From assembly GCA_945877655.1 (NCBI GenBank), contig CAMCSH010000004.1, positions 1 to 36,287 on the forward strand: DNA of 36,287 nt, given 5' to 3'. A program made the translations under genes and the position numbers. The stretch comes from Lentisphaera araneosa HTCC2155 (GTDB lineage Bacteria; Verrucomicrobiota; Lentisphaeria; Lentisphaerales; Lentisphaeraceae). This document shows, one piece after another, positions 6,316-21,536 of the stretch (position 1 is its first letter; every line of letters starts with the position of its first letter). The notes beneath the pieces are model-generated. The model saw nothing but the letters and a program-made list of their open reading frames with translations, searched no databases and had not been told where the DNA came from.

Positions 6316-6465
6316 GGAGCGCGGCAGTCCGCGCAGCGACTGCGGCCGGGATGTCCGGGATCGGGTCGTGGCGACGATACCTGACTGACGCGATCAGATG
6401 TCTTCTGCCGCTTGTTGGTGCCGGAAATTGAGGGGCCGCAGTCGCTACGCGGACTGCCGCGCTCC
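6316..6465. repeat. REPIN 1: inverted pair of 32-nt REP hairpins
   Basis: The left arm (6316-6347) begins GGAGCGCGGCAGTCCGCG and the right arm (6434-6465) is its reverse complement except for one loop base. Each arm is itself a hairpin: GCAGTC pairs with GACTGC around an 8-nt loop. The 86-nt interior begins with ATGTCCGGGA and ends near GCCGGAAATTGA, and it is largely shared with the element at 10193-10342. It sits between a plus-strand gene end and the terminator of the reductase gene. Two facing REPs in one mobile unit is the REPIN layout known from Pseudomonas and other bacteria; a candidate mobilising RAYT gene lies at 20403. Confidence 0.9.
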
Positions 6466-6531
6466 ATTCACGGTCACATGGCATCTCTCTGACCTCGAGA
6501 CCTTGTAACCAGCAAGGCAAAGCCAAGCGCA

Positions 6532-6567
6532 AAAAACCGCGGCACCTTTTCAGGTGCCGCGGTTTTT
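6532..6567 (-). terminator. Bidirectional intrinsic terminator after the reductase gene
   Basis: A 15-bp perfect stem (AAAAACCGCGGCACC with GGTGCCGCGGTTTTT) surrounds a 6-nt loop. With an A-tract on one side and a T-tract on the other, it can end transcription from both directions. It lies 33 bp past the stop of the siroheme reductase gene. Confidence 0.9.
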
Positions 6568-6599
6568 GAACTCATCTCGAGCTGGAAGCTCGAGCCACG

Positions 6600-8966
6600 T
6601 CAGCCCTTCAGGCCGTCTTTGACCAGGATCAGTGAGTACTGGGTGTCTTCGTTGATCGGGGCGAGCTGGACGATGCGGTGGCCGTCGTTTTTCAGCGAGG
6701 CGGGGATGTTGCGGTAGGGATCGCCGGTGTCGACCAGGATTTCGATCTCGGCGCCGGCGCCGAGGGTCGCCAAGGCGTGACGGGCCTTGATGAAACCGAT
6801 GGTGCTGGTGACGCCGCTGAGGTCGAGCTTGGGGCGACCATCAACGATCGGCAACTGCAGATCGACTTGGGGCTTGCAGTTTTCGCGTTCATTGCGGTAC
6901 ATACGCACCCAAGTGTCGACAAAGCCCTTGCTGGCGGCGAGGAGGCTGGCTGCCTCGTCCTTGCTGTAGCTGGCGGCGGCTGCAGCGAGGAGCGACTCGG
7001 GGACGGCGGGGAGCTTGCCGTTGAGGCCGTAGAAGCGGATGTAGGCTTCGAGAGCGGGAGTCAGCTCGGCGATGGCTTCGCCGGCTTCGATCAGGGTGGC
7101 GCGCAGAGCGTGGCGCAGGGCCTCGCGGGCGTTGAAGACGGTGTCGGCGAAGTAGCCCTTCTCTTGAACTTGAGCGCCCATCTTGAGGAAGTTGAGAGCG
7201 TCGTCGAAGGCTTCGGTGACCAGGTTGAGGGCGCCGCCGGCGCATTCACCCATGCCGACCGCGGGCGAATACTCGTCGCCTTCGGCTTGTTCGTAGTCGC
7301 GGTAGAGATCGAGGTCGCTGGCTTCGACGGTGTCGAAAGGCTTCACCAAGGCTTGAACTTCCTTGACATCGACCTGGCCGAGCCATTCGTCGAAGCTGAC
7401 CGGGCTGCTCAGAGCCTTGTAGTGGGCGATGATCGCCTTGACCGCGGCAGGGGCCTTCTTGGCGGTGACGCGACCGACGCGGCGGGAGAGACGGCGGGCG
7501 CCGTCAAAGACCTTGCCGCCGATGGAGAGCATGGCGCAGGGGACGGCCTTGCCTTCGACGACGCGGGACGAGCCGTTGAAGCCGAGCGAGGCGACGCCGT
7601 GCTGGCCGCAGCCGTTGTGGCAGCCGGAGATGTGGATGCGGCCGTCTTCGACGCCGGCGGCGAGCTCGGGCTCGTTCTCGAAGATGTCGATGAGGACGTC
7701 AGCGAGGCCTTTCGACGAGGTGACCGAGAGGTTGCAGGTGCTGCGGCCGGGGCAGGCGACGACGTTGGAGATGTGCGAGTAACGAGGGTCGGCGAGCTTC
7801 AGACCTTCGAGGCGGCGCTTGGCGTCGGCGAGGTTGCCGAGGGGGATGTTGGGGATGACCATGTTCTGGTTGACGGTGAGGCGCATTTCGCCGTTGCCGA
7901 GTTGTTCCGCAAGGTCGCAGAGCGAGCGCATGGCGGTGGAGTCTATGTCGCCCATGCGGATGCGGACGCGGAGGCCGTAGGTGTCGACCTTGTTCTGAAC
8001 GAAGACGCAGGCCTTGGCCCAGGATTCGCCGACGAGGGCAGCGGCCTTGCCGAAGTCGGCACTGGCTTTGGGCAGTTCGAGCTTGGCGTCGGGCAGTTCG
8101 ATGATCAAGGATTTACCGTATTCCGAGGCGGCGAGGCGGTCGAACTCAGCGCGGTATTGGGCGTTGAACCACTCGGCGCCGCGCTCGAGCTTGATGAACT
8201 TCATGCGAGCCTTGTTGCGGTCCTTGCGGTTGCCGAACTCGTTGAAGACGCGCATCAGGGCGGTGGCGCAGAGAAGCAGTTCGGCGGGGCGGAGTGCGGG
8301 GTGAACACAGTCGGCAGCGACCGGGCGGCCACCAAGACCGCCGGCGGCCCAGACGTCGAAGGCGGGCAGGCCATTCGCGTCGCGGACGGCGACGAAGCCG
8401 ATGTCGTGCATGGCGGAGAGGCCGTGGTCGCCGTGGTTGTCTCCGGAGAAGCTGATTTTGAACTTACGGGGGAAGTTCTGGGTGTAGGGGTTGCGCAGGC
8501 AGTGATGGACCAGGGCTTCGGCGGCGGGGATGATGTCGAAGACCTGCTCGGGGGTGATGCTGGCGTAGGGGTCGGCGGATACGTTGCGGACGGTGTTGCC
8601 GCAGGCTTCACGCGAGGTGAGGCCGCAGTCGGCCATCATTTCGAGGAGCTTGGGGGTGAGGCCGCGGGGGATGTAGTGGAGCTGGATGGCCGAGCGGGTG
8701 GTGATGTGCAGGATGCTGTTGGTCAGGGTGTCGGCCATGCCGCACATGGCGCGCAGCTGCTTGGCATCGGTGACGCCGTAGGGGATCTTGATGCGGACCA
8801 TCTGGACGCCGGGCTGGCGCTGGCCGTAGATGCCTTGCCAGAGGCGGCGCTTCTGCCATTCGGATTCATGGAGTTTGCCGGCTTCAAAGCCTTCGAGGGT
8901 TTCGCGGAAATCGCGGATCTCTTCATCAACAACGGCAGTGCGGACAAAATCAATGGCTCGGCTCAT
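6600..8966 (-). CDS. Siroheme nitrite/sulfite reductase with TusA-like C-terminal domain
   Basis: The 788-residue cytoplasmic protein reduces nitrite or sulfite with six electrons. Two half-domains of the family are visible (about 45-290 and 310-530). The siroheme/[4Fe-4S] ligands are C405 and C411 (ACPGRSTC) and C449 and C453 (SGCHNGCG). Beyond residue 570 there is an added all-helical segment (about 575-695) and then a TusA/SirA-like fold (about 711-788: LDLSGV, IEILVDTGDP, DGHRIVQL). In TusA the Cys of the CP motif is catalytic; here Ser721-Thr722 stand in its place, so sulfur transfer is unlikely. Families without these extras are about 500-600 residues. The NsrR-like regulator just upstream favours nitrite as substrate, but sequence alone does not decide between nitrite and sulfite. 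The start has an AGGAG site. Confidence 0.88.
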   Translation of the reverse strand: MSRAIDFVRTAVVDEEIRDFRETLEGFEAGKLHESEWQKRRLWQGIYGQRQPGVQMVRIKIPYGVTDAKQLRAMCGMADTLTNSILHITTRSAIQLHYIPRGLTPKLLEMMADCGLTSREACGNTVRNVSADPYASITPEQVFDIIPAAEALVHHCLRNPYTQNFPRKFKISFSGDNHGDHGLSAMHDIGFVAVRDANGLPAFDVWAAGGLGGRPVAADCVHPALRPAELLLCATALMRVFNEFGNRKDRNKARMKFIKLERGAEWFNAQYRAEFDRLAASEYGKSLIIELPDAKLELPKASADFGKAAALVGESWAKACVFVQNKVDTYGLRVRIRMGDIDSTAMRSLCDLAEQLGNGEMRLTVNQNMVIPNIPLGNLADAKRRLEGLKLADPRYSHISNVVACPGRSTCNLSVTSSKGLADVLIDIFENEPELAAGVEDGRIHISGCHNGCGQHGVASLGFNGSSRVVEGKAVPCAMLSIGGKVFDGARRLSRRVGRVTAKKAPAAVKAIIAHYKALSSPVSFDEWLGQVDVKEVQALVKPFDTVEASDLDLYRDYEQAEGDEYSPAVGMGECAGGALNLVTEAFDDALNFLKMGAQVQEKGYFADTVFNAREALRHALRATLIEAGEAIAELTPALEAYIRFYGLNGKLPAVPESLLAAAAASYSKDEAASLLAASKGFVDTWVRMYRNERENCKPQVDLQLPIVDGRPKLDLSGVTSTIGFIKARHALATLGAGAEIEILVDTGDPYRNIPASLKNDGHRIVQLAPINEDTQYSLILVKDGLKG

Positions 8967-9064
8967 GGGGACTCCTGATGTGGTCTGGCGGTTCAGATCA
9001 ACTTAGACCAAGTCAGCCAGTCCCCAAGGGGCTATGACGATCGCTTAGGCGAATTTCAGCGTCA

Positions 9065-9541
9065 TCATTTGGCGCTGCGGCTCTTTTTCGGCTCCGGCTG
9101 GATCGGCAGCAGCGGTTTTCTGAGTGCCTCGGCATCGATACCTTCCATCGCATCGGCGAGGGTGTAGAGCTCGAGATGCTGGATAAAGGTGCGGAGTGCG
9201 CGGCCGATGATGCGCTGCAGGCCGCAGTTGCCGGAGAGCTTGCAGGTGTTCTCGACGGGGTTCATGCATTCGACCAGGATGAAGGTCGGCTCGAAGTCGC
9301 GCACCACGTCGGAGATGCGGATAAGCTTCGGCTCGCGGGCGAGGGCCAAGCCGCCTCCATAGCGACCTCGCTTCAGTTTCATGTAGCCCATGTGGCCGAG
9401 GCGGTTGACCACCTTGGTGAGGTGGCTGCGCGAGATGCCGAAGCTGTCGCTGATCTCGCTGGTCAGGACCAGGCGCTCCGGATGAGCCGCGACATAGATC
9501 AGGGTCCGCAAGGCGTAATCGGTCATCATCGCGATTTGCAT
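9065..9541 (-). CDS. Rrf2-family regulator, NsrR-like
   Basis: The 158-residue protein starts MQIAMMTDYALRTLIYVA, matching the winged-helix N-terminus of Rrf2 regulators, with the recognition region SFGISRSHLTKVVNRLG and the wing RGRYGGGLALA. Three cysteines at 92, 100 and 106 (EC, then TC, then NC) have the NsrR arrangement that holds an NO-sensitive iron-sulfur cluster; IscR has a different, tighter spacing. NsrR proteins repress nitrosative-stress genes. Here the gene is followed after 98 bp on the same strand by the siroheme reductase and is divergent from a membrane protein gene, so both are likely targets. The AGGAAGA ribosome site supports the start. Confidence 0.88.
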   Translation of the reverse strand: MQIAMMTDYALRTLIYVAAHPERLVLTSEISDSFGISRSHLTKVVNRLGHMGYMKLKRGRYGGGLALAREPKLIRISDVVRDFEPTFILVECMNPVENTCKLSGNCGLQRIIGRALRTFIQHLELYTLADAMEGIDAEALRKPLLPIQPEPKKSRSAK

Positions 9542-9608
9542 GATTCTTCCTGTGCTTGAAGCATTTGATTTGACCGAGAATAAATCCTCCTCTCGGACCG
9601 ATACAAGT

Positions 9609-9627
9609 GCGACATTGCAGTTGTCGC
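9609..9627. promoter_or_regulatory. Candidate operator between the regulator and the divergent gene
   Basis: GCGACA and TGTCGC form a perfect dyad around a 7-nt spacer (TTGCAGT), with weaker symmetry further out (CAAG and CTTG). It lies in the divergent promoter region and directly abuts a TTGACA hexamer at 9629-9634, which is 17 nt from a weak TTATTC -10 match. A repressor bound here would block that promoter. The adjacent Rrf2 protein is the obvious candidate, although the half-sites do not look like the AT-rich NsrR consensus of enterobacteria. Confidence 0.5.
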
Positions 9628-9691
9628 CTTGACATTCCTAGCCATTGGCGCTTATTCCGTGCGTCACAGAAACCCGAAGGAAGCCCCCACC

Positions 9692-10135
9692 ATGATGTCG
9701 CGCTACGCCATTTATTACCCGATGCATTTCCTTGGCATCGCCATGATCGTGCTCGCCCTTGGCGCCTTTGCCGGCCATTATTTCGGCGGCGCCACCGAGC
9801 CCCATCCCCGCAAGAAACTCCTCGCCATCGTCCACGGCATCGGCCTGGTTCTGGCCATCGTCGGCGGCTTCGGGCTGATGAAAGTCTTCGGCATCAAGCA
9901 CAGTTCATACTTGCAGAATCCCTGGCTTTTGGCCAAGACCCTGATCTGGGTCTTCCTCGCCATGGCCCCCTTCCTGATGCGCAAGGCGCCTCGTCAAGCC
10001 CTGCTGATCTTCTTCCTCTGCATCGCCAGCTTCGTCTTCGCCGCTTCCGCCGCCAAGTTCAAGAGCTTCGAAGCCTGGTCAGCCAACTTCAAAACGGCCC
10101 CGGCGGAAGCCAAGCCGGCTGAAAGCAAGCCCTGA
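9692..10135 (+). CDS. Four-helix integral membrane protein (SirB-like in look)
   Basis: The start at 9692 (MMSRYAIYYPMHFLG) follows GAAGGAAG and gives 147 residues; the open frame further upstream overlaps the promoter. Four hydrophobic segments are visible (about 8-27, 42-61, 75-94 and 101-120), followed by an Ala/Lys/Pro-rich tail (APAEAKPAESKP). The helix layout recalls small SirB/DUF420-like membrane proteins, but I cannot assign a family with confidence. It is transcribed away from the Rrf2 gene and is followed within 10 bp by a terminator, so it is probably a single-gene unit under shared control. Confidence 0.7.
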   Translation: MMSRYAIYYPMHFLGIAMIVLALGAFAGHYFGGATEPHPRKKLLAIVHGIGLVLAIVGGFGLMKVFGIKHSSYLQNPWLLAKTLIWVFLAMAPFLMRKAPRQALLIFFLCIASFVFAASAAKFKSFEAWSANFKTAPAEAKPAESKP

Positions 10136-10169
10136 GAAAAAAGCCGCCTCGACCGAGGCGGCTTTTTCG
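10136..10169 (+). terminator. Intrinsic terminator
   Basis: GAAAAAAGCCGCCTCG pairs with CGAGGCGGCTTTTT around a very short loop, right after the stop of the membrane protein gene. The flanking A and T tracts make it functional in both directions. Confidence 0.9.
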
Positions 10170-10192
10170 TAGCTGGGATCGCCCTTTAGACC

Positions 10193-10342
10193 GGAGCGCG
10201 GCAGTCCGCGGAGCGACTGCGGCCGGGATGTCCGGGATTGGGTCGTGGCGACGATAGCTGACTGACGCAATCAGAGGTTTTCCTCCGCTAACACGTGCCG
10301 GACATTGAGGGGCCGCAGTCGCTACGCGGACTGCCGCGCTCC
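10193..10342. repeat. REPIN 2: inverted pair of REP hairpins
   Basis: The arms lie at 10193-10224 and 10311-10342. The left arm has G instead of C at loop position 19 (CCGCGGAGC); the right arm has the standard T. The interior is nearly the same as in the element at 6316-6465 for its first 50 nt and near its right end, so both are recent copies of one ancestor. It sits between the terminator of the membrane protein gene and the 3' end of flgL. Confidence 0.9.
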
Positions 10343-10360
10343 ACCTTGTTGAGCTTACCC

Positions 10361-10405
10361 AGTTGTGTCCCGACTGTGTCCCAACTGTGTCCCAGTCGTA
10401 TCCCT
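10361..10405. repeat. Short tandem repeat (11-nt unit, GTGTCCCAACT type)
   Basis: Four to five copies of an approximately 11-nt unit (AGTTGTGTCCC, GACTGTGTCCC, AACTGTGTCCC and so on) run up to the flgL stop. The reverse-complement unit recurs at 23345-23386 and once or twice at 2836-2858. Confidence 0.8.
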
Positions 10406-10406
10406 G

Positions 10407-11330
10407 TCAAATGTATTTCAGGATCGACATGTCGTTGCTTCTGGAGACCATCTGCATCGAGGCCTGGAAGGAGGTCTGCAGCTGCGACAGCTCCATGATC
10501 GCCTTGCTCATGTCGACATCCTTCAGCAGGCTGATCTGTTGCTGGTTGGTCTCTTGCACCGAAATCAGGGTGTTGTTCTGCTGCTCGAACCACTGCTGAC
10601 GGACGCCGTTGGAGGAGATCCGGTTGATGACGTGGTCGAGGTTGTTCTCGAGCTGTTTCTGGTCGTTGACATCAACTTGGGCACCGGTCTTCAGGACGTC
10701 ACGCAATTTGATCAAGTTGGCAAAGAGATCGACGCCTTTATCGGTGGCGATGAAGGTGCCATTGGTGCCTGCCGCGAGGTCGCCGTAAGGAACGACGGAG
10801 CCGTGGTCGATCTGGGTCTGGCGGCGTTCGGTGGAGGCGTCGGCGTTGCTGGTGACGCCGGTGATCAGGCCGCTGACCGGGTCGCGAGTGGCGGTGAGGG
10901 GCTCCTGGGCGTCGGTGCCGGAGAAGAGGTAGGTGCCGGCGTATTGCGAGTTGCCGGTCTGGTAGAGTTGCTCGATCAAGGCGTCCATCTGTTCGCCGAT
11001 GTCCATGCGGGCGCTGGCGGGGATGGTACCGTTGTTCGACTGGGTGATCAGTTCGAGGGCTTTCTGCACCGTGTCGACGCTGTCTTGCGTGCGTGCCTGG
11101 GTGGCGGCGAGCCAGGAGCCGGCTTCGGTGACGTTGCCGCCGAACTGCTTGGTCTCTTCGTTGCTGCGCTCGATCAAGGCGGATTCCGAGGCGTCGGCGG
11201 GGGCTTCGGAGCGGTTGATCCAGCTTCTGCCGGAGGAGATCTGGGCCTGTTTCTGGCCGTAACGCGCCTGGGTGTCGAGGACTCGGGAGGCCAAGTCGTC
11301 GTACTGGGCGCCGGTGCTGATGCGGTTCAT
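10407..11330 (-). CDS. flgL: Flagellar hook-filament junction protein FlgL
   Basis: The product of 307 residues begins MNRISTGAQYDDLASRVLDT and ends in ISLLKDVDMSKAIMELSQLQ and a coiled C-terminus (MQMVSRSNDMSILKYI), the paired D0/D1 helices of the flagellin/FlgL family. FlgL (HAP3) joins the hook-associated region to the filament outside the cell. The ATG at 11328-11330 overlaps the stop of the upstream nucleotidyltransferase gene by 4 bases and has a CGGAGG site. The open frame extending to 11693 antisense to that gene is not used. It is the last gene of the flagellar cluster. Confidence 0.93.
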   Translation of the reverse strand: MNRISTGAQYDDLASRVLDTQARYGQKQAQISSGRSWINRSEAPADASESALIERSNEETKQFGGNVTEAGSWLAATQARTQDSVDTVQKALELITQSNNGTIPASARMDIGEQMDALIEQLYQTGNSQYAGTYLFSGTDAQEPLTATRDPVSGLITGVTSNADASTERRQTQIDHGSVVPYGDLAAGTNGTFIATDKGVDLFANLIKLRDVLKTGAQVDVNDQKQLENNLDHVINRISSNGVRQQWFEQQNNTLISVQETNQQQISLLKDVDMSKAIMELSQLQTSFQASMQMVSRSNDMSILKYI

Positions 11331-12442
11331 GGCTGACCTCCGGGGGGAATGGGGAAGGGATAGACGGCGGCACTCATTGCGGCGGCCGCAAGTTTGGCGC
11401 GGCAGTAGCGATCGGCTTCGGCGATTTCGGTGTGCTGGCCGATGTCTTTCCAGTACTCGAGAATGGGGAAGGCGCCGACTTTCTGACTGAGGCTGCGCGC
11501 CTTGTTCATCAAAGACACCATGTCGTAGAAACGGCCCTTGGGAATGAGGTCGATGACCTCGGGATTGATCATGTAAATGCCGGCGTTGACGAGGAAGGGG
11601 ATTTCCGGCTTTTCGTCGATGCCGGCGACGCTGCGGTCGTCTTCGAGGCGGACGACGCCGTAGGGGATGCGGTAAGAGAAGCGGCGGACGCACATGGTGA
11701 TGGCGTTGCCGGACTCCTGGTGGAAGGTCGAAAGGGCTCGGAAATCGAGCTCGGTGAGGAGGTCGCCATTCATCACCAGGAAGGCGTGTTGCGGCCGGGG
11801 ATTGAGCAGGGCTAGGGCACCGGCGGTGCCGAGTGCGGTCTCCTCGTGGACGTAGTTGACATGGAGGTCGTGGGAATCGCCGGCGCCGACGTGGTCGCGG
11901 ATCTTGTCGGCGAGGTAGCCGACGGTGAGGACGACGTCTTTGACGCCGTTGCGGCGGAGCTTGCCGAGGATGTCATCGAGGATGGTCTGATCGCCGACCA
12001 TCAGCAAGGGCTTGGGGGTGTCCTGAGTCAAAGGCATGAGACGCTGGCCGCGGCCGCCGGCCATGACCACGGCTTCGGCAACACCATCTTCATCAAGGCG
12101 GTCCTTGAAGAGTTCGAGAGCGACCGGGCGGCCTTGCTCATCGACCACGGGAACCTGGCGGATCTTGCGGGCGACCATCAGGCGCAGGACGTCTTCGCTG
12201 GTGGCCTCGGTGCCGACGCGGATCGGATCGCGGGTCATCACCTGATCGATCGGGGTGTCGAGCGAGGCGCCGCCGAGGAAGGCGCGGCGGATGTCGCCAT
12301 CGGTGACCATGCCGATGAGGACGCCGGATTCATTGATGACGAGGGCGCATTCGGCCTTCATGGCGCGCAGGGTGGCGGCGAGACTGGTGCTGGGTCGCAC
12401 CAGAGACGAAAGTAGAAGATCGCCCTGTACCTGCGCGGTCAT
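11327..12442 (-). CDS. CBS-domain sugar-1-phosphate nucleotidyltransferase
   Basis: The 371 residues hold two CBS motifs (about 10-115, with MVTDGDIRRA and IRQVPVVDEQGRP) and then a nucleotidyltransferase domain from residue 124 (VVMAGGRGQRLMPLTQDTPKPLL, containing the GG-x-G-x-RL nucleotide loop; NGDLL later). This architecture matches PtmE-type enzymes, which activate glucosamine-1-phosphate with GTP in the legionaminic acid route used for flagellin glycosylation in Campylobacter. The gene is embedded between flgK and flgL and is translationally coupled to flgL, so a role in decorating flagellin is a reasonable inference. The exact sugar and nucleotide are not readable from sequence. Confidence 0.85.
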   Translation of the reverse strand: MTAQVQGDLLLSSLVRPSTSLAATLRAMKAECALVINESGVLIGMVTDGDIRRAFLGGASLDTPIDQVMTRDPIRVGTEATSEDVLRLMVARKIRQVPVVDEQGRPVALELFKDRLDEDGVAEAVVMAGGRGQRLMPLTQDTPKPLLMVGDQTILDDILGKLRRNGVKDVVLTVGYLADKIRDHVGAGDSHDLHVNYVHEETALGTAGALALLNPRPQHAFLVMNGDLLTELDFRALSTFHQESGNAITMCVRRFSYRIPYGVVRLEDDRSVAGIDEKPEIPFLVNAGIYMINPEVIDLIPKGRFYDMVSLMNKARSLSQKVGAFPILEYWKDIGQHTEIAEADRYCRAKLAAAAMSAAVYPFPIPPGGQP

Positions 12443-12445
12443 GGG

Positions 12446-12610
12446 TCAGCGTCCGGGGCGGCCGCCGACGGGCTTGCCGGGGCGGGTGCTGAGATTTTGC
12501 AGAGCCTTGAGGTAGTTCTGCAGGCTGCCGCCGAGATTGCCTAAGCTGCCGCCGAGACCGCCGGGGTTCTGAGAGCGGCTGCCGTTGTCCTGAGTCTTCT
12601 GGGTGTTCAT
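12446..12610 (-). CDS. 54-aa Gly/Asn/Ser-rich small protein
   Basis: The ATG at 12608-12610 is preceded by AGGAGA at good spacing, and the frame ends 3 bp before the nucleotidyltransferase start, so tight coupling supports a real gene. The product reads MNTQKTQDNGSRSQNPGG, then a repeated GGLGGSL/GGSLQNYLKALQNL stretch and a basic PGKPVGGRPGR tail. It has no signal or membrane segment. I know no family. A small cytoplasmic role linked to flagellar assembly is possible from its location only. Confidence 0.6.
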   Translation of the reverse strand: MNTQKTQDNGSRSQNPGGLGGSLGNLGGSLQNYLKALQNLSTRPGKPVGGRPGR

Positions 12611-12660
12611 GATCAGATCTCCTGTCGGTATGGTGTTTTGCAAGAAGCGGGCCATTTCAG

Positions 12661-12770
12661 TTAAGAATTAAGAATTAAGAATTAAGAATTAAGAATTAAG
12701 AGCGATGCATCTGATTCAGGCGGCCGTTGTTCGTCGTTCATTTTTAATTCTTAATTCTTAATTCTTAATT
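12661..12770. repeat. Facing arrays of 7-nt TTAAGAA units
   Basis: A 40-nt run of TTAAGAA heptamers (12661-12700) faces its reverse complement (TTAATTC units, 12744-12770) across 43 nt of ordinary sequence. The arms can pair over 27 bp. A shorter related run lies at 1380-1404. It fills the gap between flgK and the 54-aa gene, where it may act as an mRNA hairpin. Confidence 0.9.
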
Positions 12771-12774
12771 GAGC

Positions 12775-14157
12775 TCAGACCATGCCGATGACGGTCTGCA
12801 TCATCTGGTCGACGATGGAGACGAATTTGGCGGAGGACTGGAAGGCGCGTTGGTACTCGAGCATGTTGGTCATTTCCTGTTCGACGTTGACGCCGGAGCG
12901 TTCGTCGATGATGGCCTTGAACATCTTTTGGGTGCTGGTCGCGGTTTCGAGATTGGCCTGGGCGCGGGAGCGCTCGACTGCGACGGCGTCGACGATGCGG
13001 TCGGCGCGGTCGACTGCGGCGTCGTTGCCGAGGGCGGCGGAGGGAGTTTTCAAGGTGTTCCACATCGCCAAGGCGTTGCCGCCGTCGCCGGAGTTGGTGG
13101 CGTTGTCGGCGGCGGCGACGAGTTTGCTGTCGGAGATCAGGGCCTTCATCTGGCCCGGCACGGTGACGTCAAAAAGGGCGGTGCCGGCGGCGCCGTTTTT
13201 GTCGAAGCCGGCGGCGTGCTGGGTGTTGAGCATCGTGGCGAATTCAGTCGCGAAGTTGTCGGTGTCGGTGATCTTGCCCTGGATGTAGTTGTAGGAGTCG
13301 ACCAGGCCGGACATCTCGCCCAGATCCTGGCCTACATCCGAGCTGTCGCTAGCCCATTTGAGCGAGGCGACATTGCCGGTGACATCGGCTTGCAAAGTGT
13401 CGGCGACGGCGGCGCCTGCGACGAAGTCCTTGCCGTTGATCTGGACGGTGTAGCTGCGGTCTTGCTGTTCGGCGACGGTGATGTTGACCAGTTTGGCGAG
13501 GTCGCTGACGGCGCGGTCGCGCTCGTCGCGGAGCTCGATGGCGAGCTGATTATTGTTCTGCCAGAAGCCGAGTTCCACCTTGGTGATGCGGTCGTTGAGG
13601 TCGGCGATGCGGGTGGCGAGAGTGTTGGCTTCGACCACTTTGTCGGGCAGGGCGCCGACGGTGGCGGAAGTGGCGATGCCGTCGCGGACGTCAGTGAGGA
13701 GGCTGTGTTGCAGATTGAAGGCCGAGGCGACCCGTTCGGCGCTGGCGAGGAAGGTGGAGCGGTGGACCTCGCTCTCGGGGTTATTGGAGAGAGACTGAAG
13801 ACTGGCGGCCAATTCGCCGATGGCGCCTGTCAAGGGCGAAGTGCCGTCGTTGGAAACTGCGGCTTCGGTCATGCCGAGATAGCGCTCGAATTGATCCTGA
13901 TAGCCGCCTTCCATGATTGAGTTGCGCAGATTGCCTTCGAGGGCGACATCGAAACTGCGGACGACGTTCTGGACATGGACGCCCGAGCCGAGCTGCAGGT
14001 TGCCTTTGTCGAGGGGGATGTTTGCATCGACGGTGGCGGTCTGGCGGTGGTAGCCGGCGCGGTCAGAGTTGGCGACGTTGTTGCCGACGGTGCGGAGCTG
14101 CACCTGACGGGTGAGGAGAGAGCTTTCGCCGATCCAGAGGCTGTTGGAAAGTGACAT
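12775..14157 (-). CDS. flgK: Flagellar hook-associated protein FlgK
   Basis: The 460-residue product has the FlgK N-terminal signature (SLLTRQVQLRTVGNNVANSD, then RAGYHRQTATVD) and the C-terminal helix (MTNMLEYQRAFQSSAKFVS, then QMMQTVIGMV). FlgK (HAP1) caps the hook and carries FlgL in the export-dependent extracellular axial structure. The length is within the family range (about 450-650). An AAAGGA ribosome site precedes the ATG. It is separated from flgN by a repeat-filled 183 bp gap but lies on the same strand. Confidence 0.95.
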   Translation of the reverse strand: MSLSNSLWIGESSLLTRQVQLRTVGNNVANSDRAGYHRQTATVDANIPLDKGNLQLGSGVHVQNVVRSFDVALEGNLRNSIMEGGYQDQFERYLGMTEAAVSNDGTSPLTGAIGELAASLQSLSNNPESEVHRSTFLASAERVASAFNLQHSLLTDVRDGIATSATVGALPDKVVEANTLATRIADLNDRITKVELGFWQNNNQLAIELRDERDRAVSDLAKLVNITVAEQQDRSYTVQINGKDFVAGAAVADTLQADVTGNVASLKWASDSSDVGQDLGEMSGLVDSYNYIQGKITDTDNFATEFATMLNTQHAAGFDKNGAAGTALFDVTVPGQMKALISDSKLVAAADNATNSGDGGNALAMWNTLKTPSAALGNDAAVDRADRIVDAVAVERSRAQANLETATSTQKMFKAIIDERSGVNVEQEMTNMLEYQRAFQSSAKFVSIVDQMMQTVIGMV

Positions 14158-14183
14158 GGCGGCGTTCCTTTATCCTAAACTCA

Positions 14184-14333
14184 GTTGAAAGGTTGAAAGG
14201 TTGAAAGGTTGAAAGGTTGAGCTGCAGCGGCACTTAACCAAGCGGCAGGAGACACTGCCAAAGATCCGAACTATCGTTTGCTTATTGTTGTCGTTCACGT
14301 GTTTGCCTTTCAACCTTTCAACCTTTCAACCTT
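14184..14333. repeat. Facing arrays of 8-nt GGTTGAAA units
   Basis: GGTTGAAA units fill 14184-14220 and their reverse complement (CCTTTCAA) fills 14306-14333; 85 nt of non-repeat DNA lie between. The arms could form a 28-bp stem in the flgN-flgK intergenic mRNA. The layout is the same as at 12661-12770 but the unit is unrelated. Confidence 0.9.
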
Positions 14334-14340
14334 GTTTCCT

Positions 14341-14790
14341 TTATCCGGCGCAATCGAGCAGGCGTGAACCGCCGCGGGCGCCGAGGCGTCCCGCCTTGTC
14401 GTAGACCCGGCGTCCGGGGCTGGAGGCGGCGCTGTTGGCGAGGGCGCGTTCGACGGCGCCGAGATAGCTGCGGGCGAGGCCGTAGTTGACTTGTTCGCGG
14501 ATGCTGACGCGGCCGATCAGGGCGCGCAATTCAGCGCGGGCGGCGGGCAGCTCGGGTGAGACGATGGCACCGCCATCGATCACCCGTTTCCACACTCCGG
14601 CAAGTTGCTCGAGCGCGGCGGCGCGTTCCTGCTGCTGCGCCAGCAATTCCCAGATCTCCTGGGTGCGGCGGTGGATGAGGGCGTTCTGCAGATTGTCGGC
14701 CGATTCGAGAAGCAGGGCCGCGGCGTTCCACAGGCGCTCGGCGAGGCCGCCGACGCGCTGCACCGATTCGGGCATTTCGGGCGTGCTCAT
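14341..14790 (-). CDS. flgN: FlgN-like flagellar export chaperone
   Basis: The 149-residue protein is mostly helical with heptad character (LLESADNLQNALIHRRTQE, then IWELLAQQQERAAALEQL) and a late SYLGAVERAL segment followed by a Gly/Arg-rich tail (YDKAGRLGARGG), the plan of FlgN. FlgN chaperones FlgK and FlgL for export, and both genes lie just downstream. Its start overlaps the stop of the FlgJ-like gene by 4 bases. Sequence similarity in this family is weak, so the call rests on helical pattern plus neighbours. Confidence 0.75.
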   Translation of the reverse strand: MSTPEMPESVQRVGGLAERLWNAAALLLESADNLQNALIHRRTQEIWELLAQQQERAAALEQLAGVWKRVIDGGAIVSPELPAARAELRALIGRVSIREQVNYGLARSYLGAVERALANSAASSPGRRVYDKAGRLGARGGSRLLDCAG

Positions 14791-15089
14791 GATTGGGCTC
14801 CCTGCTGCTGCATTTTCAGGCTTTGGTAGATGGCGTCGGCGAGGCCGCCGTCCATGTTGCTGGCGACATGCTTGGACAGCTGTTCCCAGGCCATGTCCTT
14901 CCAGGCACCACTGCTGGCTTCGCCGTCTTCATTGTCGGCCAGCGCCTTGGCGCTCTCCATGCCCTGTTTCAGCAGGGTGCCGGTGAGGACTTCCTCGAAA
15001 TTCTTCGCCACCTGGCGGAGCTGTGCATCCTCCTTGTCGGCACCGCGGAGAATGGCGCCGGAAGAGGGGCTGGTTGAGGTGATGATCAT
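14787..15089 (-). CDS. flgJ: FlgJ-like rod-binding protein
   Basis: With the ATG at 15087-15089 (AGGAG site upstream) the product is 100 residues. It carries the rod-binding signature LRQVAKNFEEVLTGTLLKQGMES and later WKDMAWEQLSKHVASN and GLADAIYQSL. This is the N-terminal half of classical FlgJ; the C-terminal muramidase half is missing, as in many non-enteric bacteria where the rod-binding domain stands alone. It is the first gene of the cluster and lies 31 bp after a sigma-54 promoter match. Confidence 0.88.
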   Translation of the reverse strand: MIITSTSPSSGAILRGADKEDAQLRQVAKNFEEVLTGTLLKQGMESAKALADNEDGEASSGAWKDMAWEQLSKHVASNMDGGLADAIYQSLKMQQQGAQS

Positions 15090-15120
15090 GGTCGGACTCC
15101 TGATTTGTGATTTCTTACAA

Positions 15121-15136
15121 TGCAGGGTCCGTGCCA
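15121..15136 (-). promoter_or_regulatory. Sigma-54 (RpoN) promoter for the flagellar cluster
   Basis: Read on the minus strand the site is TGGCACGGACCCTGCA. The consensus is TGGCAC, then R-N4, then TTGCA, and the site departs from it in one base of the -12 element. The GG and GC doublets are exactly 10 nt apart. It lies 31 bp before the flgJ-like start codon, leaving room for a short leader with its AGGAG site. Hook-filament genes under RpoN are known in several flagellated phyla. Confidence 0.75.
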
Positions 15137-15291
15137 GCGGGAAAACAGAGAAGCTCCATGAGGGATTAAGGGAAATACTTTCCGTGAATGAGCATGGGTG
15201 AGGATTTTCAGGGAAGCCCAAAAAGAACGACAAAGACGCGACACGATGATGTGCCTTGATTTTCTAGGGGATGAAATTTCTCGGAGCTTCG

Positions 15292-15335
15292 TCGATGTCT
15301 ATCGATATCTGTCGATATCATCGATAGCTATCGGA
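15292..15335. promoter_or_regulatory. Cluster of ATCGAT/GATATC dyads, possible activator site
   Basis: CTATCGAT (15299-15306) and ATCGATAG (15320-15327) face each other across 13 nt that contain further TCGATATC repeats. The cluster lies in the 266-bp gap between the mqnD stop and the flgJ-like gene, about 160 bp upstream of the sigma-54 promoter. That distance suits binding of an NtrC-type enhancer protein. It might instead be part of the mqnD transcript end. The rest of the gap shows nothing else I can name. Confidence 0.35.
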
Positions 15336-15355
15336 ACTCGGCAAAAAAAGGTTTC

Positions 15356-16141
15356 TCAGAGCAGTCGCTTCAACTCCACCAAGGCCCGGCGGCCTTCGTC
15401 CGACAGCTCGATCGACTCGCTGTTGACGTAGGTGCGGATGTGCTGGTCGAGGACCTCTTCCGACAGCTCCTGGGCATGGCCACGGATGAACTCAGCGAGC
15501 TCCGGCTGGTCGCGCCAGGGACGGCTCAGGGCCAGGGCGACGCTGCGGCCGAGGGCGGCGCTGAACTCCTGACGAAGCGACGCCGGCAGATCGCGTCGGG
15601 CGACGATACAGCCGAGGGGGATCGGCAGGCCGCTTTCCTCCTCCCACCACGCGCCGAGATCGCGCACCAAATTCAGGCCGTGTTGCGGGTAGGTGAAGCG
15701 CGATTCATGGATGATCAATCCCGCGTCAGCTTCGCCCGACGCGAGGGCAGGCATAATCGCCGAGAAGATCTTTTCCGTCGGACGAAAATCCCGTCCGAGA
15801 AAGCCGCGCAAAAGCAGGAAGGCGGTAGTGCTGCGTCCGGGAATCAGGATCTCGGATCGAGCCAATTCGGCCGCGGATTTATGTCCGCGGGACACCAACA
15901 AGGGACCGCAGCCGCGTCCAAGCGCCGCGCCAGCGGCGAGGATCTCATGCGTCGCGTCGAGTCGCAGCGCTTCGGCGCAAGAGACCTTGGCGAAATCGAC
16001 CTCGCCGGAGGCCGCGAGTCGATTCAGCTCGGCGATGTCGCTGAGGCGCAGCTCGAGACGATCCCGCCACTGCGGATCCCGCAAAAGACCGTGGAACATG
16101 AAGGTGTCGTTGGGGCAGGGAGAGATGGCGAGACGAATCAT
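15356..16141 (-). CDS. mqnD: 1,4-dihydroxy-6-naphthoate synthase MqnD
   Basis: With the ATG at 16139-16141 the product is 261 residues, close to the usual 270-290. It begins MIRLAISPCPNDTFMFHGLL, the MqnD signature, and has VDFAKVSCAEALRL, a Ser/Thr-rich PGRSTTAFLL loop and GLIIHESRFTY, which carries the conserved His. MqnD converts cyclic de-hypoxanthine futalosine to 1,4-dihydroxy-6-naphthoate in the futalosine route to menaquinone. No other mqn gene is in the window. It follows the MATE gene by 50 bp on the same strand. The upstream extension of the frame overlaps the MATE end and is not used. Confidence 0.93.
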   Translation of the reverse strand: MIRLAISPCPNDTFMFHGLLRDPQWRDRLELRLSDIAELNRLAASGEVDFAKVSCAEALRLDATHEILAAGAALGRGCGPLLVSRGHKSAAELARSEILIPGRSTTAFLLLRGFLGRDFRPTEKIFSAIMPALASGEADAGLIIHESRFTYPQHGLNLVRDLGAWWEEESGLPIPLGCIVARRDLPASLRQEFSAALGRSVALALSRPWRDQPELAEFIRGHAQELSEEVLDQHIRTYVNSESIELSDEGRRALVELKRLL

Positions 16142-16191
16142 GGGCAGGCCGGGGTTGTTGGAGGCGGCCAATATAGAGCCGGAAAAGCGCC

Positions 16192-17577
16192 TCACTCCTC
16201 GATCATCCGCAGGCTCCGCCAGGGACCGAGGCGGAAGCGCAGGTAGAGCACGGTGCCGAGAATCAGCATCGAGACGATGAACAGGCTCCACAAGGCAAGA
16301 GGTCCGTAGCCGAGGTGGACGCCGAGCAGGGTCAAGCCCGCGAGGCCCCAGAAAATCAGGGCGCTGGTGACCAGGGTGAAGCGGACATCGCCGGCGCCTT
16401 TGAGGACGCCGCCGAAGATCAGATGTGCTGAATCCGCAAGCAGATAAATGGCGCAGAGCCGCAGCATGTCGGAGGCGAGCGACACGGCCTCAATCGAGCC
16501 TTTCTGACCGGCGAAAACCGCGGCGAGCTGGGGGGCGAAAATCAGGAAGAGAACGGCCATAAATGCCGAGTAGCTCCAGGCCACCCGCAAGCCGTTGAAA
16601 GCGGCGCGTTCCGCGGAGGCCGGATCGTCGGCGCCGAGACAACGGGCGCTCACCGACGACACGGCGATTTGCAATCCGGTCATCGGCAAAAAGGCGAGCA
16701 GCTCCCAGTTGAAGCAAATGGTCACCGCCGCCGCCGACAAGACTCCGGCCGACTGGAAGGCGAGGATGAAGCCGTTGAAACCGGCCATCATCAAGAGGAA
16801 TTCCGCTCCGCCAGGCAGGCCGTAGCGCAGCAGACGACGCATCAGTTCGCCGTCCCAGCGCAGGCCCGAAACGGTGCCGAATTCGCGTCGGCAAGCCGGC
16901 GAAAAAGCCTGCGACGCAAGCAGGGCGACGCCGAGCATTCCAGCGCAGCCGGTGGCGATTGCTGCGCCCTTCAATCCGAGGCTGGAAAAGAGGCCGCCGC
17001 CGGTGATCAGCAGCCAGGCGAGTGGGACATTCAGCAGGGCGACTCCGAGACTGGCGCCCATCACCAGTCGGGTCCGTCCGAGGGCGGTGAAAAAGGCGCC
17101 GAAGCTGGCTTTGAAGAGCATCGGGATGTGGGCGAAGCTCATCCAGAAATAATAATCGAGCTCGAGGCGCAGCAACTCGCCCTCATGGCCGAAGGCGCGG
17201 AAAAGCAGTCCGGCGAGCGGCGCACTGAGGGGCAGCAGAGGCGCCACCAGGCAGGTGAAAAACAACGACTGCCCGAGCACCGCTCCGGCGCGTTCGGGAC
17301 GGCCGGCGCCGAGGTATTGACTGGCGAGTGGCGTTGCTGCGCCGAGGACGCCGAGGAAGAAGCAGGCGGTGAGGAAGGACGTGAGGCCGCCGGAGAAGGC
17401 CGCCGCCATCTCCAGCATGCCGCGTTGCGACAGCAGCCAGCGGTCCCAGAACAGCATCAAGGTGTCGCTTGCCGAAGACACCACCATCGGCAGCGCGATC
17501 GGCAGCAATTCAGCCAGGCCACCGGGGCCATCCCAATGGCGGCCGGCGAGGCGGCGGATGAAGAGGGGAAAATGCAA
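16192..17577 (-). CDS. MATE-family efflux transporter
   Basis: The 461-residue inner-membrane protein has about twelve hydrophobic helices in two similar halves and MATE features such as LLPIALPMVVSSASDTLMLF and LGAATPLASQYLGAGRPE in the first half and LPGGAEFLLMMAGFNGF opening the second. It should export cationic compounds or drugs by Na+ or H+ antiport. The only start ahead of the first helix is a TTG (17575-17577), because an in-frame stop lies about 30 bp further upstream; the ribosome site there is weak, so the start is uncertain. It may share a transcript with mqnD. Confidence 0.88.
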   Translation of the reverse strand: MHFPLFIRRLAGRHWDGPGGLAELLPIALPMVVSSASDTLMLFWDRWLLSQRGMLEMAAAFSGGLTSFLTACFFLGVLGAATPLASQYLGAGRPERAGAVLGQSLFFTCLVAPLLPLSAPLAGLLFRAFGHEGELLRLELDYYFWMSFAHIPMLFKASFGAFFTALGRTRLVMGASLGVALLNVPLAWLLITGGGLFSSLGLKGAAIATGCAGMLGVALLASQAFSPACRREFGTVSGLRWDGELMRRLLRYGLPGGAEFLLMMAGFNGFILAFQSAGVLSAAAVTICFNWELLAFLPMTGLQIAVSSVSARCLGADDPASAERAAFNGLRVAWSYSAFMAVLFLIFAPQLAAVFAGQKGSIEAVSLASDMLRLCAIYLLADSAHLIFGGVLKGAGDVRFTLVTSALIFWGLAGLTLLGVHLGYGPLALWSLFIVSMLILGTVLYLRFRLGPWRSLRMIEE

Positions 17578-17690
17578 AAGAGATCTGCCGTGAAAAGGGT
17601 TTCGGATTCAAGGCAGGCAATAGACCGCCGAAAAGCCGGGCGGCGAGCGGCGGGCGGCTCCATGGCTCCTTGAAGCACGGCAAAAGCACT

Positions 17691-17857
17691 GGAGCGCGGC
17701 AGTCCGCGCAGCGACTGCGGCCGTAATGTCCGCAACTGTCAAAGCAAAGAAACCGCAGGATTGCGGCAGTTGCAAATCATGAAAGCAGTTCGCTTCAATC
17801 TTCGGACGGACGCCGGAAATAGAAGGGCCGCAGTCGCTACGCGGACTGCCGCGCTCC
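17691..17857. repeat. REPIN 3: inverted pair of REP hairpins
   Basis: Arms at 17691-17722 and 17826-17857 match the other copies and differ from each other at loop position 19 (C left, T right). The 103-nt interior keeps the ATGTCCG edge and the GCCGGAAAT edge but is otherwise different from the elements at 6316 and 10193. It lies between the 3' end of the PLP enzyme gene and the start of the MATE gene. Confidence 0.9.
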
Positions 17858-17868
17858 ATTTTTTCAGC

Positions 17869-19671
17869 TTACATCGCCCCGGCATGGCGGCGGTGGATGT
17901 CGAGGTAGATCTGGGCGTAGAGCTTTTTCGCTGCGGCCTCGCTCGGGAAGCCTTTTGAGAAGCCCTTGCTCACGGGGTCGAGTACCAGTTTTGCGGCGTC
18001 CGCGAGGTGGCGCAGGAGGAGACGGGGATCGTCGTCGCCGACCGCGACGCGCACCGTGCTGCGGCTGATGCCGGCACGCAAAAGCGCCTCTTCGCTGAGC
18101 TCGGAGTGCGAGGTCAAGGCGGGACAAAGGACGACGGTGTTGACCTGACCAAGCGACACCTGCAGACCGAAGGCGGGTTCGAGGAGGTCGAAGAAGCGTT
18201 TGAAGGCGTCGATCGGCATCCCTTGCGCGAGGGCCGGGCCGAGGTCGAAGGTGAAAAGCGGCGACGGCATTCCGAGGTAAAGCAGGCGCTTGGCGAGTTC
18301 GTGATTGGGATCCTCGGGCAAGGCGGGACAGTGAACCTTGAGCAGCGGGTGGCTGGCCAGGGCGCGCGACAGGAAGCTGGTGTTCACCGCCTTGCGGATG
18401 AGGCGCAGCTCGAGGGTGCGCATGCCGGTGAGCACTTCGAAGGCGGTGTCGGCATCGAGGAAGGCGCCTTTGATGTAGTAGACATTCCAGAACAGCGACT
18501 CGTTCCAGTGGCGGATCACCGGGCGGCCCATGGCGTCGCGTCCGGGAATCTCGGCGCCTTTGGGCAGGAACATCCGCTCGTTGCGGGCGATCACCGTGCC
18601 GGCGGTGGCGTTGCCGGTGCCGCAAATGTCCTTGGTCAACGAGTGGACGACGAAGTCGGGACGGCTGGCCTCGTCATCACAGCGCAGCACCGGGTGGAGG
18701 AAGGGCGTGCCGACGGTGGCGTCGCAGATCAGCTCGGCGCCGGCTTCGTGCGACAGGCGCGAGATGGCGGGCACGTCGAGCACATAGCCGTGCGGGTTGC
18801 AGGGGGATTCGATGAAGACGTAGAGGCGGCGCCCCGATTTGAGCGCGGCGGCGTGTTTTTTCTTCACCGCTTTCAGGGCTTTGGCGAAGGAAGGAGCGTC
18901 GTGGCCGTCGAAGAATTCCAGTTGGATGCCGAGGTTGGCGGGGCGGGCGTACCAGTCGTGCAAGAGCTGCCAGGTGCCGCCGTAGATATTGCGCGAACAC
19001 ATGACGATGTCGTCACGGCCGAAGAGGTGCGAGAAGACGGCGTCGAGCGCGGCCATGCCGGAGTTGAAATTGAGGGCGAAATATTGATCGGCGAGGGCGC
19101 CGGCTTCGACATCGACGAGCTGGTTGGCGAGGGCGATGGAAGTCGGGTTCATCAAGCGCGAATAGATTTCGTGCATCAGCTCCTTGCCCTGGAAGGCGTC
19201 TTCGACCCATTCGGTGCAGGCGTAGAGGTAGGTGGCGGTGCGGCAGATGACCGGTTGCGACGAGAAGATGGCGGCGACGTTGTCGAAGACCGGCCAAGGG
19301 CCTTTGGGCAGTCGTTGGCCGGGTTCGGTGATCAGCGACTGGTAGGAGGCGCGCAGCGGGTTCTGCAGGTTGTCGAGGATCTTCGCCATCTGGAAGCAGA
19401 GGAAGCGCTTGGCGTTGAAGTAGGCGACCTTCTCGCTGCGGCTGAGTTTCGGCAGCAGGGCCGACGAGGCAGCCCAGAGCTCCTTCAGGTCGGCATTGGC
19501 CTCGTAGAGGCGGGCGGCGAGGGGTTTGAGCAGGCGATGCTCTTGACTTTCCGGTGCGATGCCGAAGTGGGCGAGCTGCTCTTCGGCCAGGTCCACAGCG
19601 CTCAGGATCTGGGTGCTTTTGCGACGGGGCGAAAGCTGACGGCGGGCTTCTTCACGTTGTTGACGCGACAT
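17869..19671 (-). CDS. Large Cys/Met-metabolism-type PLP enzyme with extensions
   Basis: The 600-residue protein contains the fold-type I core of the cystathionine gamma-synthase family (about 165-500): YSRLMNPTS near the core start, NFNSGMAALDAVFSHL for phosphate binding, YVFIESPCNPHG, ICDATVGTPF with the Asp that pairs the PLP nitrogen, and HSLTKD with K347 as the likely Schiff-base Lys. Core-only members are about 380-420 residues; here about 160 N-terminal and 90 C-terminal residues are added. Relatives act on homoserine esters, cystathionine or methionine; the substrate cannot be chosen. An AAGGAGG site precedes the ATG, with a TATACT -10 and TGGACA -35 match further upstream (19698-19727). 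Confidence 0.85.
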   Translation of the reverse strand: MSRQQREEARRQLSPRRKSTQILSAVDLAEEQLAHFGIAPESQEHRLLKPLAARLYEANADLKELWAASSALLPKLSRSEKVAYFNAKRFLCFQMAKILDNLQNPLRASYQSLITEPGQRLPKGPWPVFDNVAAIFSSQPVICRTATYLYACTEWVEDAFQGKELMHEIYSRLMNPTSIALANQLVDVEAGALADQYFALNFNSGMAALDAVFSHLFGRDDIVMCSRNIYGGTWQLLHDWYARPANLGIQLEFFDGHDAPSFAKALKAVKKKHAAALKSGRRLYVFIESPCNPHGYVLDVPAISRLSHEAGAELICDATVGTPFLHPVLRCDDEASRPDFVVHSLTKDICGTGNATAGTVIARNERMFLPKGAEIPGRDAMGRPVIRHWNESLFWNVYYIKGAFLDADTAFEVLTGMRTLELRLIRKAVNTSFLSRALASHPLLKVHCPALPEDPNHELAKRLLYLGMPSPLFTFDLGPALAQGMPIDAFKRFFDLLEPAFGLQVSLGQVNTVVLCPALTSHSELSEEALLRAGISRSTVRVAVGDDDPRLLLRHLADAAKLVLDPVSKGFSKGFPSEAAAKKLYAQIYLDIHRRHAGAM

Positions 19672-19697
19672 GGGCGACCTCCTTGGGGCTCTGATTC

Positions 19698-19727
19698 AGT
19701 ATACGCCCAAGGAGTCCTCGCTGTCCA
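19698..19727 (-). promoter_or_regulatory. Sigma-70-type promoter for the PLP enzyme gene
   Basis: On the minus strand TGGACA (19722-19727) and TATACT (19698-19703) are separated by 18 nt and lie just upstream of the AAGGAGG-ATG of the PLP gene. Both hexamers are close to consensus. Confidence 0.5.
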
Positions 19728-19790
19728 GTTTTTCCGCCGTTTATTCGGGACAAGGCGATAACTCGGGCTTCCAAAAACCGGCGGCGGCCT

Positions 19791-19818
19791 TTGCCAGCGG
19801 CGTCTGGCGAGCTAAAAT
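19791..19818 (+). promoter_or_regulatory. Sigma-70-type promoter for the zinc-ribbon-like gene
   Basis: TTGCCA (19791-19796) and TAAAAT (19813-19818) are 16 nt apart and lie 26 bp before the ATG at 19845. This is a good match to the housekeeping consensus. Confidence 0.5.
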
Positions 19819-19844
19819 GCGCCCCCCTGAAAGAGCCCAAAACC

Positions 19845-20072
19845 ATGCAGTCCCCCCATCAGCCCGCAAGCAGCAGCTTCCCGATTACCTGGGAGCTGTC
19901 GTCGTGCCCGCTCTGCGGCCGCTTGCCGCGGGCCTATCAGGCGCCCTTGCTGTCGCCGGCCTGGTTCTGGTTTGCCTGTCCCTGCACCAGCACCGAGCCA
20001 TCCCGCGTCGATGCCGAAGCCGCGGCGGAATGGCAGCGCCTGGCGTATCTGTCGACGCCGCCGCTGTTCTGA
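19845..20072 (+). CDS. 75-aa protein with two Cys pairs, zinc-ribbon-like
   Basis: The frame beginning MQSPHQPASSSFPITWELSS has two cysteine pairs, SSCPLCG and ACPCTS, separated by about 27 residues with an aromatic FWF before the second; this looks like a small metal-binding ribbon. The tail is EAAAEWQRLAYLSTPPLF. The ribosome site (AAAGAG) is modest, but a promoter match precedes it and the stop lies 6 bp before a REP arm, where REPs usually sit. I know no family name. The overlapping frame through the REP is discarded. Confidence 0.5.
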   Translation: MQSPHQPASSSFPITWELSSCPLCGRLPRAYQAPLLSPAWFWFACPCTSTEPSRVDAEAAAEWQRLAYLSTPPLF

Positions 20073-20078
20073 TAAACT

Positions 20079-20302
20079 GGAGCGCGGCAGTCCGCGCAGC
20101 GACTGCGGCCCTTCCATTTCCGGCGTCAGTACGAAGAGCCGAACAAGTAGCCGACTTCGCGATTTGAGGTGGCGGTAAAAATCGTTCAAGATGGAGCGCG
20201 GCAGCCGACTTCGCGATTTGAGGTCGCGGTAAAAACGCGTTTTCTTCGCCTGATCTATCGCGGACATTACGGCCGCAGTCGCTACGCGGACTGCCGCGCT
20301 CC
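20079..20302. repeat. REPIN 4: rearranged inverted REP pair with internal duplication
   Basis: A left arm (20079-20110) and right arm (20271-20302) enclose an enlarged 160-nt interior. Inside, a 33-nt stretch (starting AGCCGACTTCGCGATTTGAG) occurs twice, at 20149-20181 and 20203-20235, with one mismatch. A broken REP head (GGAGCGCGGCAG, 20193-20204) lies between the copies. The simplest reading is a nested insertion or slippage in an existing REPIN. The element adjoins the truncated REP array next to the RAYT gene. Confidence 0.85.
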
Positions 20303-20398
20303 ATTTTGCTACGGACTGCCGCGCTCCATTTTGCCACGGACTGCCGCGCTCCTTTTTGCTGCGGACTGCCGCGCTCCTTTTTGCCGTGGACTGCGGCG
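20303..20398. repeat. Tandem array of truncated REP heads beside the RAYT gene
   Basis: Three 25-nt units (20303-20327, 20328-20352, 20353-20377) and a decayed fourth (20378-20398) follow one another. In RAYT orientation each reads GGAGCGCGGCAGTCCG, two or three variable bases, GCAAAAA or GCAAAAT. Only the first half of the REP hairpin is kept; the second stem strand (GACTGCGGCC) is replaced by the A-run. The array ends 4 bp from the RAYT stop codon and runs directly into an intact REP at 20271-20302. Confidence 0.9.
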
Positions 20399-21504: not shown

Positions 21505-21536
21505 AGCCGCAGTCGCTACGCGGACTGCCGCGCTCC
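21505..21536. repeat. Solo REP upstream of the RAYT gene
   Basis: This single REP has the right-arm loop (GCGTAGC on the minus strand) and one change at its outer end. It lies 25 bp upstream of the RAYT GTG and 8 bp past the stop of the next gene, with no inverted partner nearby. It points the same way as the RAYT gene. Confidence 0.9.

Follow-up and report, generated by a model that had tools for sequence, protein, structure and literature searches.

What are the inverted repeats that recur between the genes of a stretch of Lentisphaera araneosa HTCC2155 DNA, and does the same stretch encode the enzyme that spreads them? The stretch (36,287 nucleotides [nt], contig CAMCSH010000004.1; hereafter the window, always meaning its whole length) belongs to a 3.9-Mb draft genome in 370 contigs (GCA_945877655.1). 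It contains four inverted pairs of a 32-nt repetitive extragenic palindromic (REP) unit, GGAGCGCGGCAGTCCGCGNAGCGACTGCGGCC, and a gene for a REP-associated tyrosine transposase (RAYT). We conclude, at a probability of roughly 90%, that these are a REPIN/RAYT system, that is, a "REPtron" with dispersed REPINs (REP doublets forming hairpins), in which the REP foot is GGAG in place of GT[AG]G. The window RAYT probably spreads the REPINs. An earlier sequence-only reading had proposed REPINs with a cognate RAYT. That proposal is supported by the number of copies, the way they pair and point, the conservation of their ends, their linkage to the RAYT, and the fold of the protein. It had also placed the four pairs exactly, at positions 6316 to 6465 (REPIN 1, 150 bp, two 32-nt REPs with their GGAG feet outward), 10193 to 10342 (REPIN 2, 150 bp), 17691 to 17857 (REPIN 3, 167 bp), and 20079 to 20302 (REPIN 4, 224 bp, with an internal duplication spaced 54 nt), and had rightly described them as intergenic, at gene ends. 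Each pair is downstream of a minus-strand gene, whose stop codon is 12 to 135 nt from the right-hand edge of the pair; REPIN 3 is 12 nt past the stop of a Cys/Met-metabolism gene (17869 to 19671, minus strand), and REPIN 4 is 3' of the RAYT gene. Three further features on the minus strand had been missed: a full REP at 21071 to 21102, a second full REP at 21505 to 21536, and a tandem array with a 25-nt period at 20287 to 20386, between REPIN 4 and the RAYT stop. The array units consist of the REP foot and the 5' half of the stem, without the loop.

The REP family extends throughout the genome. A 17-mer core of the REP has 57 exact matches in the draft genome, 46 of them outside the window, and 65 matches when one mismatch is allowed; the reversed core has 0 and 1, respectively, and the expectation from composition is 0.004. 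We read 54 full-length copies, 36 of which make up 18 inverted pairs of 143 to 224 bp. Wherever neighbors are on opposite strands, they are arranged with the GGAG foot outward (18 of 18 pairs), and none is arranged with the foot inward. The other 18 copies are unpaired, which is a singlet/doublet ratio of 1.0 and is under the limit of 2 used to recognize REPINs. Since 11 of these 18 unpaired copies are no more than 330 nt away from where a contig ends, REPINs appear to break the assembly, and all REP and REPIN counts are lower bounds. The sequence-only reading had estimated one pair per 4 kb and a genome-wide family; the copies are indeed genome-wide, but that density is not, as there are only 18 complete pairs in 3.9 Mb. 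The window pairs are instead a local cluster around the RAYT gene. The window holds 4 of the 18 pairs, compared with an expected 0.17, although this is not a fair test because the window was chosen for its REPINs.

The foot GGAG is present in all 54 full-length copies. REP positions 18 to 32, which played no part in finding the copies, are fixed except for the loop base, one G-to-A change, and a terminal C/T. The predicted REP hairpin has a stem composed of GC, a G·G mismatch, GCAGTC, a bulged C, and GC, closed by a GNA loop, so that its tip is the mini-hairpin GCGNAGC. The free base N is T in 32 copies, G in 9, C in 8, and A in 5. A GNA loop on top of two G-C pairs, whatever the base N, forms an unusually stable DNA mini-hairpin (PMC4686876), and the freedom of this single REP position fits that structure. 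Compared over their whole length, REPINs are 61 to 96% alike, with near-invariant 32-nt ends and variable interiors, which is the signature described for REPINs (PMC3116915). As had been noted earlier, the interiors of window REPINs 1 and 2 are similar (91%) and that of REPIN 3 is diverged; the interior of REPIN 4 is diverged too. The proposed presence of more than one generation did not resolve into discrete generations, as REPIN interiors vary continuously. Two same-contig combinations, the REPINs on contig C345 (96%) and window REPINs 1 and 2, are in the top four of 153 (P ~0.01). The most similar REPINs thus tend to share a contig, which is suggestive of short-range spread.

Single-strand folding of whole REPINs is stronger than that of shuffled sequences (z = −9.4 for REPIN 1; a second value is −6.1), and all four window pairs are just 3' of genes. 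This combination would also be expected of terminators or mRNA 3'-end hairpins that had been amplified for regulation, with the RAYT there by chance or as a domesticated housekeeping protein; RAYTs in general do look maintained rather than selfish (discussed by Quentin et al. 2018, PMC6006769). We consider this explanation very improbable. It does not account for two REP arms that are near-invariant while the interiors between them are free to diverge, for a REP family that is exclusive to the one genome with the window RAYT, or for REPs that flank the RAYT gene on both sides and lie within its frame.

The RAYT gene (20403 to 21035, minus strand, TTG start) encodes a 210-amino-acid (aa) Y1 HUH transposase. 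The protein has the motifs NHFH (HUH), WQ, and YVRDNP (Y-x3-NP), as well as residues equivalent to W94, Q95, and R104, which bind the foot, and 45 homologues show no variation in the His, Tyr, Asn, and Pro columns. It is 34 to 46% identical to RAYTs in many phyla. The nearest PDB entry in a profile search is 4er8 (E = 4.6e-13), which is E. coli TnpA-REP bound to a REP hairpin, and 4er8 is also the best fold match (E = 3e-8, 18% identity) to a structure model with a confidence (pLDDT) of 88. The gene is single copy in the genome and is surrounded by its own REP family. It is in frame with a longer open reading frame (ORF; 20403 to 21479, minus strand), whose start codon has the REP at 21505 to 21536 ~26 nt upstream. 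Residues 1 to 118 of this ORF (21126 to 21479, minus strand) make up a conserved small protein, which relatives encode in a gene of its own (137 aa in G087). The REP at 21071 to 21102 falls inside this extended RAYT frame and, read as ERGSPRSDCG, links the small protein to the RAYT core. Nearly all reading frames of the REP are free of stop codons, and the REP is tolerated inside open frames. Because a RAYT of its own might begin at the TTG at 21035, which has GGAAG ~8 nt upstream, a true fusion protein from the ORF is a possibility only.

The genome encodes other Y1 proteins, and we asked whether the window REP is associated with any of them. Two are RAYT paralogues, on contigs C172 (L027, L199) and C180 (L026, L200). 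The C172 paralogue has its own REP family of 4 copies, with an inverted pair that lies in frame and separates HUH from Tyr; the C180 paralogue has its own family of 19 copies, two of them in frame in the gene before HUH. Both families have members inside as well as around their RAYT gene. No member of the window REP family was found around or inside either paralogue, and the pattern is one REP family per RAYT. Five further genes (on contigs C11, C64, C254, C159, and C166) encode Y1_Tnp proteins that are IS200-like or of the terminal inverted repeat (TIR) type. All five have better Pfam scores than the window RAYT, which raises the possibility that the window repeats resemble miniature inverted-repeat transposable elements mobilized in trans by one of them. 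We find this scarcely credible: none of the five genes has the window REP nearby, most have inverted repeats of their own, unrelated to the REP, on either side, and we reject them as REPIN mobilizers. As a separate observation, three IS200-like genes (L021, L022, and L023) lie between ~65-nt inverted repeats and resemble TIR-type Y1 elements.

We also compared 97 relatives, none of the same genus. Each has 0 to 1 one-mismatch matches to the REP core, which is the control level, and the family is absent from 16 further genomes as well. RAYTs of the same kind as that of the window are present in 24 of the 97. The expectation that genomes without the window RAYT would lack its REP is therefore borne out in this set.

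Extrapolating from E. coli TnpA-REP and IS608, we infer that the window RAYT binds, cleaves, and transposes the REP and prefers single-stranded DNA. The enzyme most likely would recognize the 32-nt REP as a single-stranded hairpin with a GGAG foot, an imperfect stem, and a GCGNAGC tip, and would nick beside two inverted REPs; the REPIN of ~150 to 170 nt may then be moved or copied while single-stranded at the replication fork. A different view is that RAYT activity has been lost and that the REPINs are relics of an earlier burst. The diverged interiors of most pairs are consistent with such a history, as are the in-frame fusion of the RAYT to another protein and the weak TTG that would be its own start. 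It is nevertheless unlikely, given intact catalytic motifs, REPIN duplicates recent enough to be 96% and 91% alike, and REP ends that are nearly free of mutations in 54 copies.

Several observations weigh against a REPIN/RAYT system with an active RAYT. The foot is GGAG, so the window REP does not have the GT[AG]G foot of canonical and subclass 2.4 systems, and E. coli TnpA-REP tolerates no change in GTAG. With standard DNA parameters, the single REP hairpin is no more stable than shuffled sequences (z = −0.5 to −1.1), and when the loop base is C, an alternative fold is predicted. The Pfam Y1_Tnp score of the RAYT is slightly under the cutoff, so the protein could be degraded, though all of its motifs are intact. 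The assembly is fragmented, often at REPINs, and REPIN mobility would follow by inference from one genome rather than from a comparison of occupied and empty sites.

The unexpected part of the analysis concerns relatives of the window RAYT. Judging from gene sequences, these interrupt essential genes midway, that for leucyl-tRNA synthetase (LeuRS) among them, and can still be read. RAYTs of the window's clade, bracketed by REPs, are found in frame inside genes for DUF1156 methylases, LeuRS, IspG, MetH, valyl-tRNA synthetase (ValRS), CarB, HypF, and HsdR. Among the 80 named loci with the best scores, 6 combine a RAYT, in frame, with a DNA methylase of the DUF1156 type (PF06634; five identified by Pfam and L109 by matching sequence). 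The RAYT occupies one site in L127, L140, and a shorter frame of L109 and a second site in L099, L122, and L128; when five of these are aligned, the site that holds the RAYT in one group is intact in the other. Other hosts among the best-scoring named loci are ValRS (L162), a DinG-like helicase, and MetH (L172), along with a WYL-type regulator identified by eye only. Relatives in the same class add Eco57I-type (L190) and PglX-like (L191) methylases, RarA in two genera (L192, L193), and NspC (L194). In a scan of the phylum, 196 of 387 genomes have RAYTs of the window's clade, and 41 of the 150 RAYT matches listed are in frames of at least 560 aa. We examined 20 of these 41, and all 20 have recognizable host domains beside the RAYT or split by it, which is not a rate because the 20 were selected for long frames. 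Their hosts include LeuRS (4: L243, L246, L247, L251), MetH (2: L250, L257), ValRS (L249), IspG (L255; a further IspG carrier is L271), CarB, HypF, HsdR (2), and radical-SAM/B12 proteins (3). Another Eco57I methylase carrier is L258, and further nested-RAYT loci are L239 to L242, L244, L245, L248, L252 to L254, and L256. In most of the 20, repeats that recur at the locus closely bracket the RAYT on both sides.

All four LeuRS insertions are in the same editing-domain loop, and both IspG insertions are at the same place; in each case, uninterrupted orthologues exist in the same family of genomes. The nested gene is the sole copy of LeuRS in 4 of 4 genomes and of IspG in 2 of 2, which rules out for these two genes that the carriers are dispensable second copies. 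The carriers all come from assemblies, mostly metagenomic, and are known here from genes alone. Misassembly is ruled out by the number of genomes, which include a single-contig one (G347, L255), by the two DUF1156 sites that control for each other, and by the shared LeuRS (4) and IspG (2) sites beside uninterrupted orthologues. The nested RAYTs retain HUH in 36 of 36 cases and the Tyr motif in 35 of 36. On a quick tree with many weak branches, most nested RAYTs fall in the sister clade of the window's, and the DUF1156 ones are on the window's side. Host labels cluster on this tree more than shuffled labels do (0 of 200 shuffles as low), which fits vertical descent, favored sites, or both.

We lean toward the interpretation that RAYTs of this clade do more than mobilize intergenic REPINs, in that a REP-bracketed RAYT can be a read-through element, in frame in the middle of a host gene, that persists in single-copy essential genes with its catalytic residues kept, and that the window RAYT is a C-terminal case of this. 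By position, such a nested RAYT would be intein-like, a likeness that does not imply removal. If this is correct, the finding of nested RAYTs again and again in one host loop, and in DUF1156 genes across phyla, would mean either that they persist vertically inside essential genes or that insertion is repeated at favored, tolerant sites. Nesting could be one answer to a question that is still open, namely how RAYTs survive when they bring no evident benefit, and the nested RAYTs would be naturally occurring examples of large domains whose insertion essential enzymes tolerate. A limited literature search found no earlier report of RAYTs nested in host genes; a major 2018 survey dropped RAYT proteins that were "unexpectedly long," treating them as fusions or annotation errors (PMC6006769).

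The window also contains other repeats, and an Rfam search of it gave no match. A different inverted pair (30596 to 30643 and 30738 to 30785), with arms that contain GCTCAACCCTGGGCTAAAATC, belongs to another repeat family, which also surrounds the IS200-like gene on contig C159 (L024). Arrays of GTGTCCCRACT-like units are present in opposite orientations at 10365 to 10404 and 23346 to 23385, and arrays of TTAAGAA units are in an inverted arrangement, near gene ends, at 12657 to 12781 and 1370 to 1426.

REPs had already been reported in Verrucomicrobia and Planctomycetes, contrary to the sequence-only reading that such systems are little described in Planctomycetes-Verrucomicrobia-Chlamydiae (PVC)-type bacteria. 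The sections of Di Nocera 2013 (PMC3733652) considered here describe GTAG REP families in Opitutus terrae and Rhodopirellula baltica, which share with the window family a PVC host and a location, for some copies, inside open frames of host genes. The families listed in those sections are GTAG families, and a GGAG family is not among them. Other repeats of the window RAYT's clade begin GGGAGCGC, GGGAACGC, GTAGCGC, and GTGGC.

E. coli TnpA-REP, which is the top match to the window RAYT by both fold and profile, and its bacterial interspersed mosaic elements (4er8; PMC8266576) resemble the window system in having a REP with an imperfect stem, unpaired bases, and a 5' tetranucleotide foot. In contrast, the window RAYT has 18% identity to the E. 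coli protein over the fold match, the foot differs, and the loop is a GNA mini-hairpin. With the mini-hairpin base as the only free position and a GGAG foot, this system makes foot and loop recognition directly testable. With subclass 2.4 REPtrons (Quentin et al. 2018, PMC6006769), the window system shares a Y1 HUH protein, WQ, Y-x3-NP, and flanking REPs, and REPs in frame inside RAYT genes are known from that subclass. An in-frame REP between HUH and Tyr, a feature of subclass 2.4, is found in the C172 paralogue, while the C180 REPs are before HUH. The internal REP of the window differs in lying upstream of the catalytic core, where it joins the core to another conserved protein, and in its GGAG foot. 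Since this foot departs from GT[AG]G, we would file the window system, on its sequence features, as a REPIN/RAYT variant and do not claim formal membership in subclass 2.4. The window system also parallels the Pseudomonas fluorescens SBW25 REPINs (Bertels and Rainey 2011, PMC3116915), which are likewise mostly inverted doublets with conserved ends, a looser spacer, RAYT linkage, a strong single-stranded DNA hairpin, and recent duplicates. The unit described here is longer, with most copies being 143 to 176 bp compared with 71 bp in SBW25 (between the first bases of the two 16-mers), and it has a GGAG foot, far fewer copies, and a PVC-type host. REPIN/RAYT pairs are thereby extended to an uncharacterized PVC-type lineage with a different foot.

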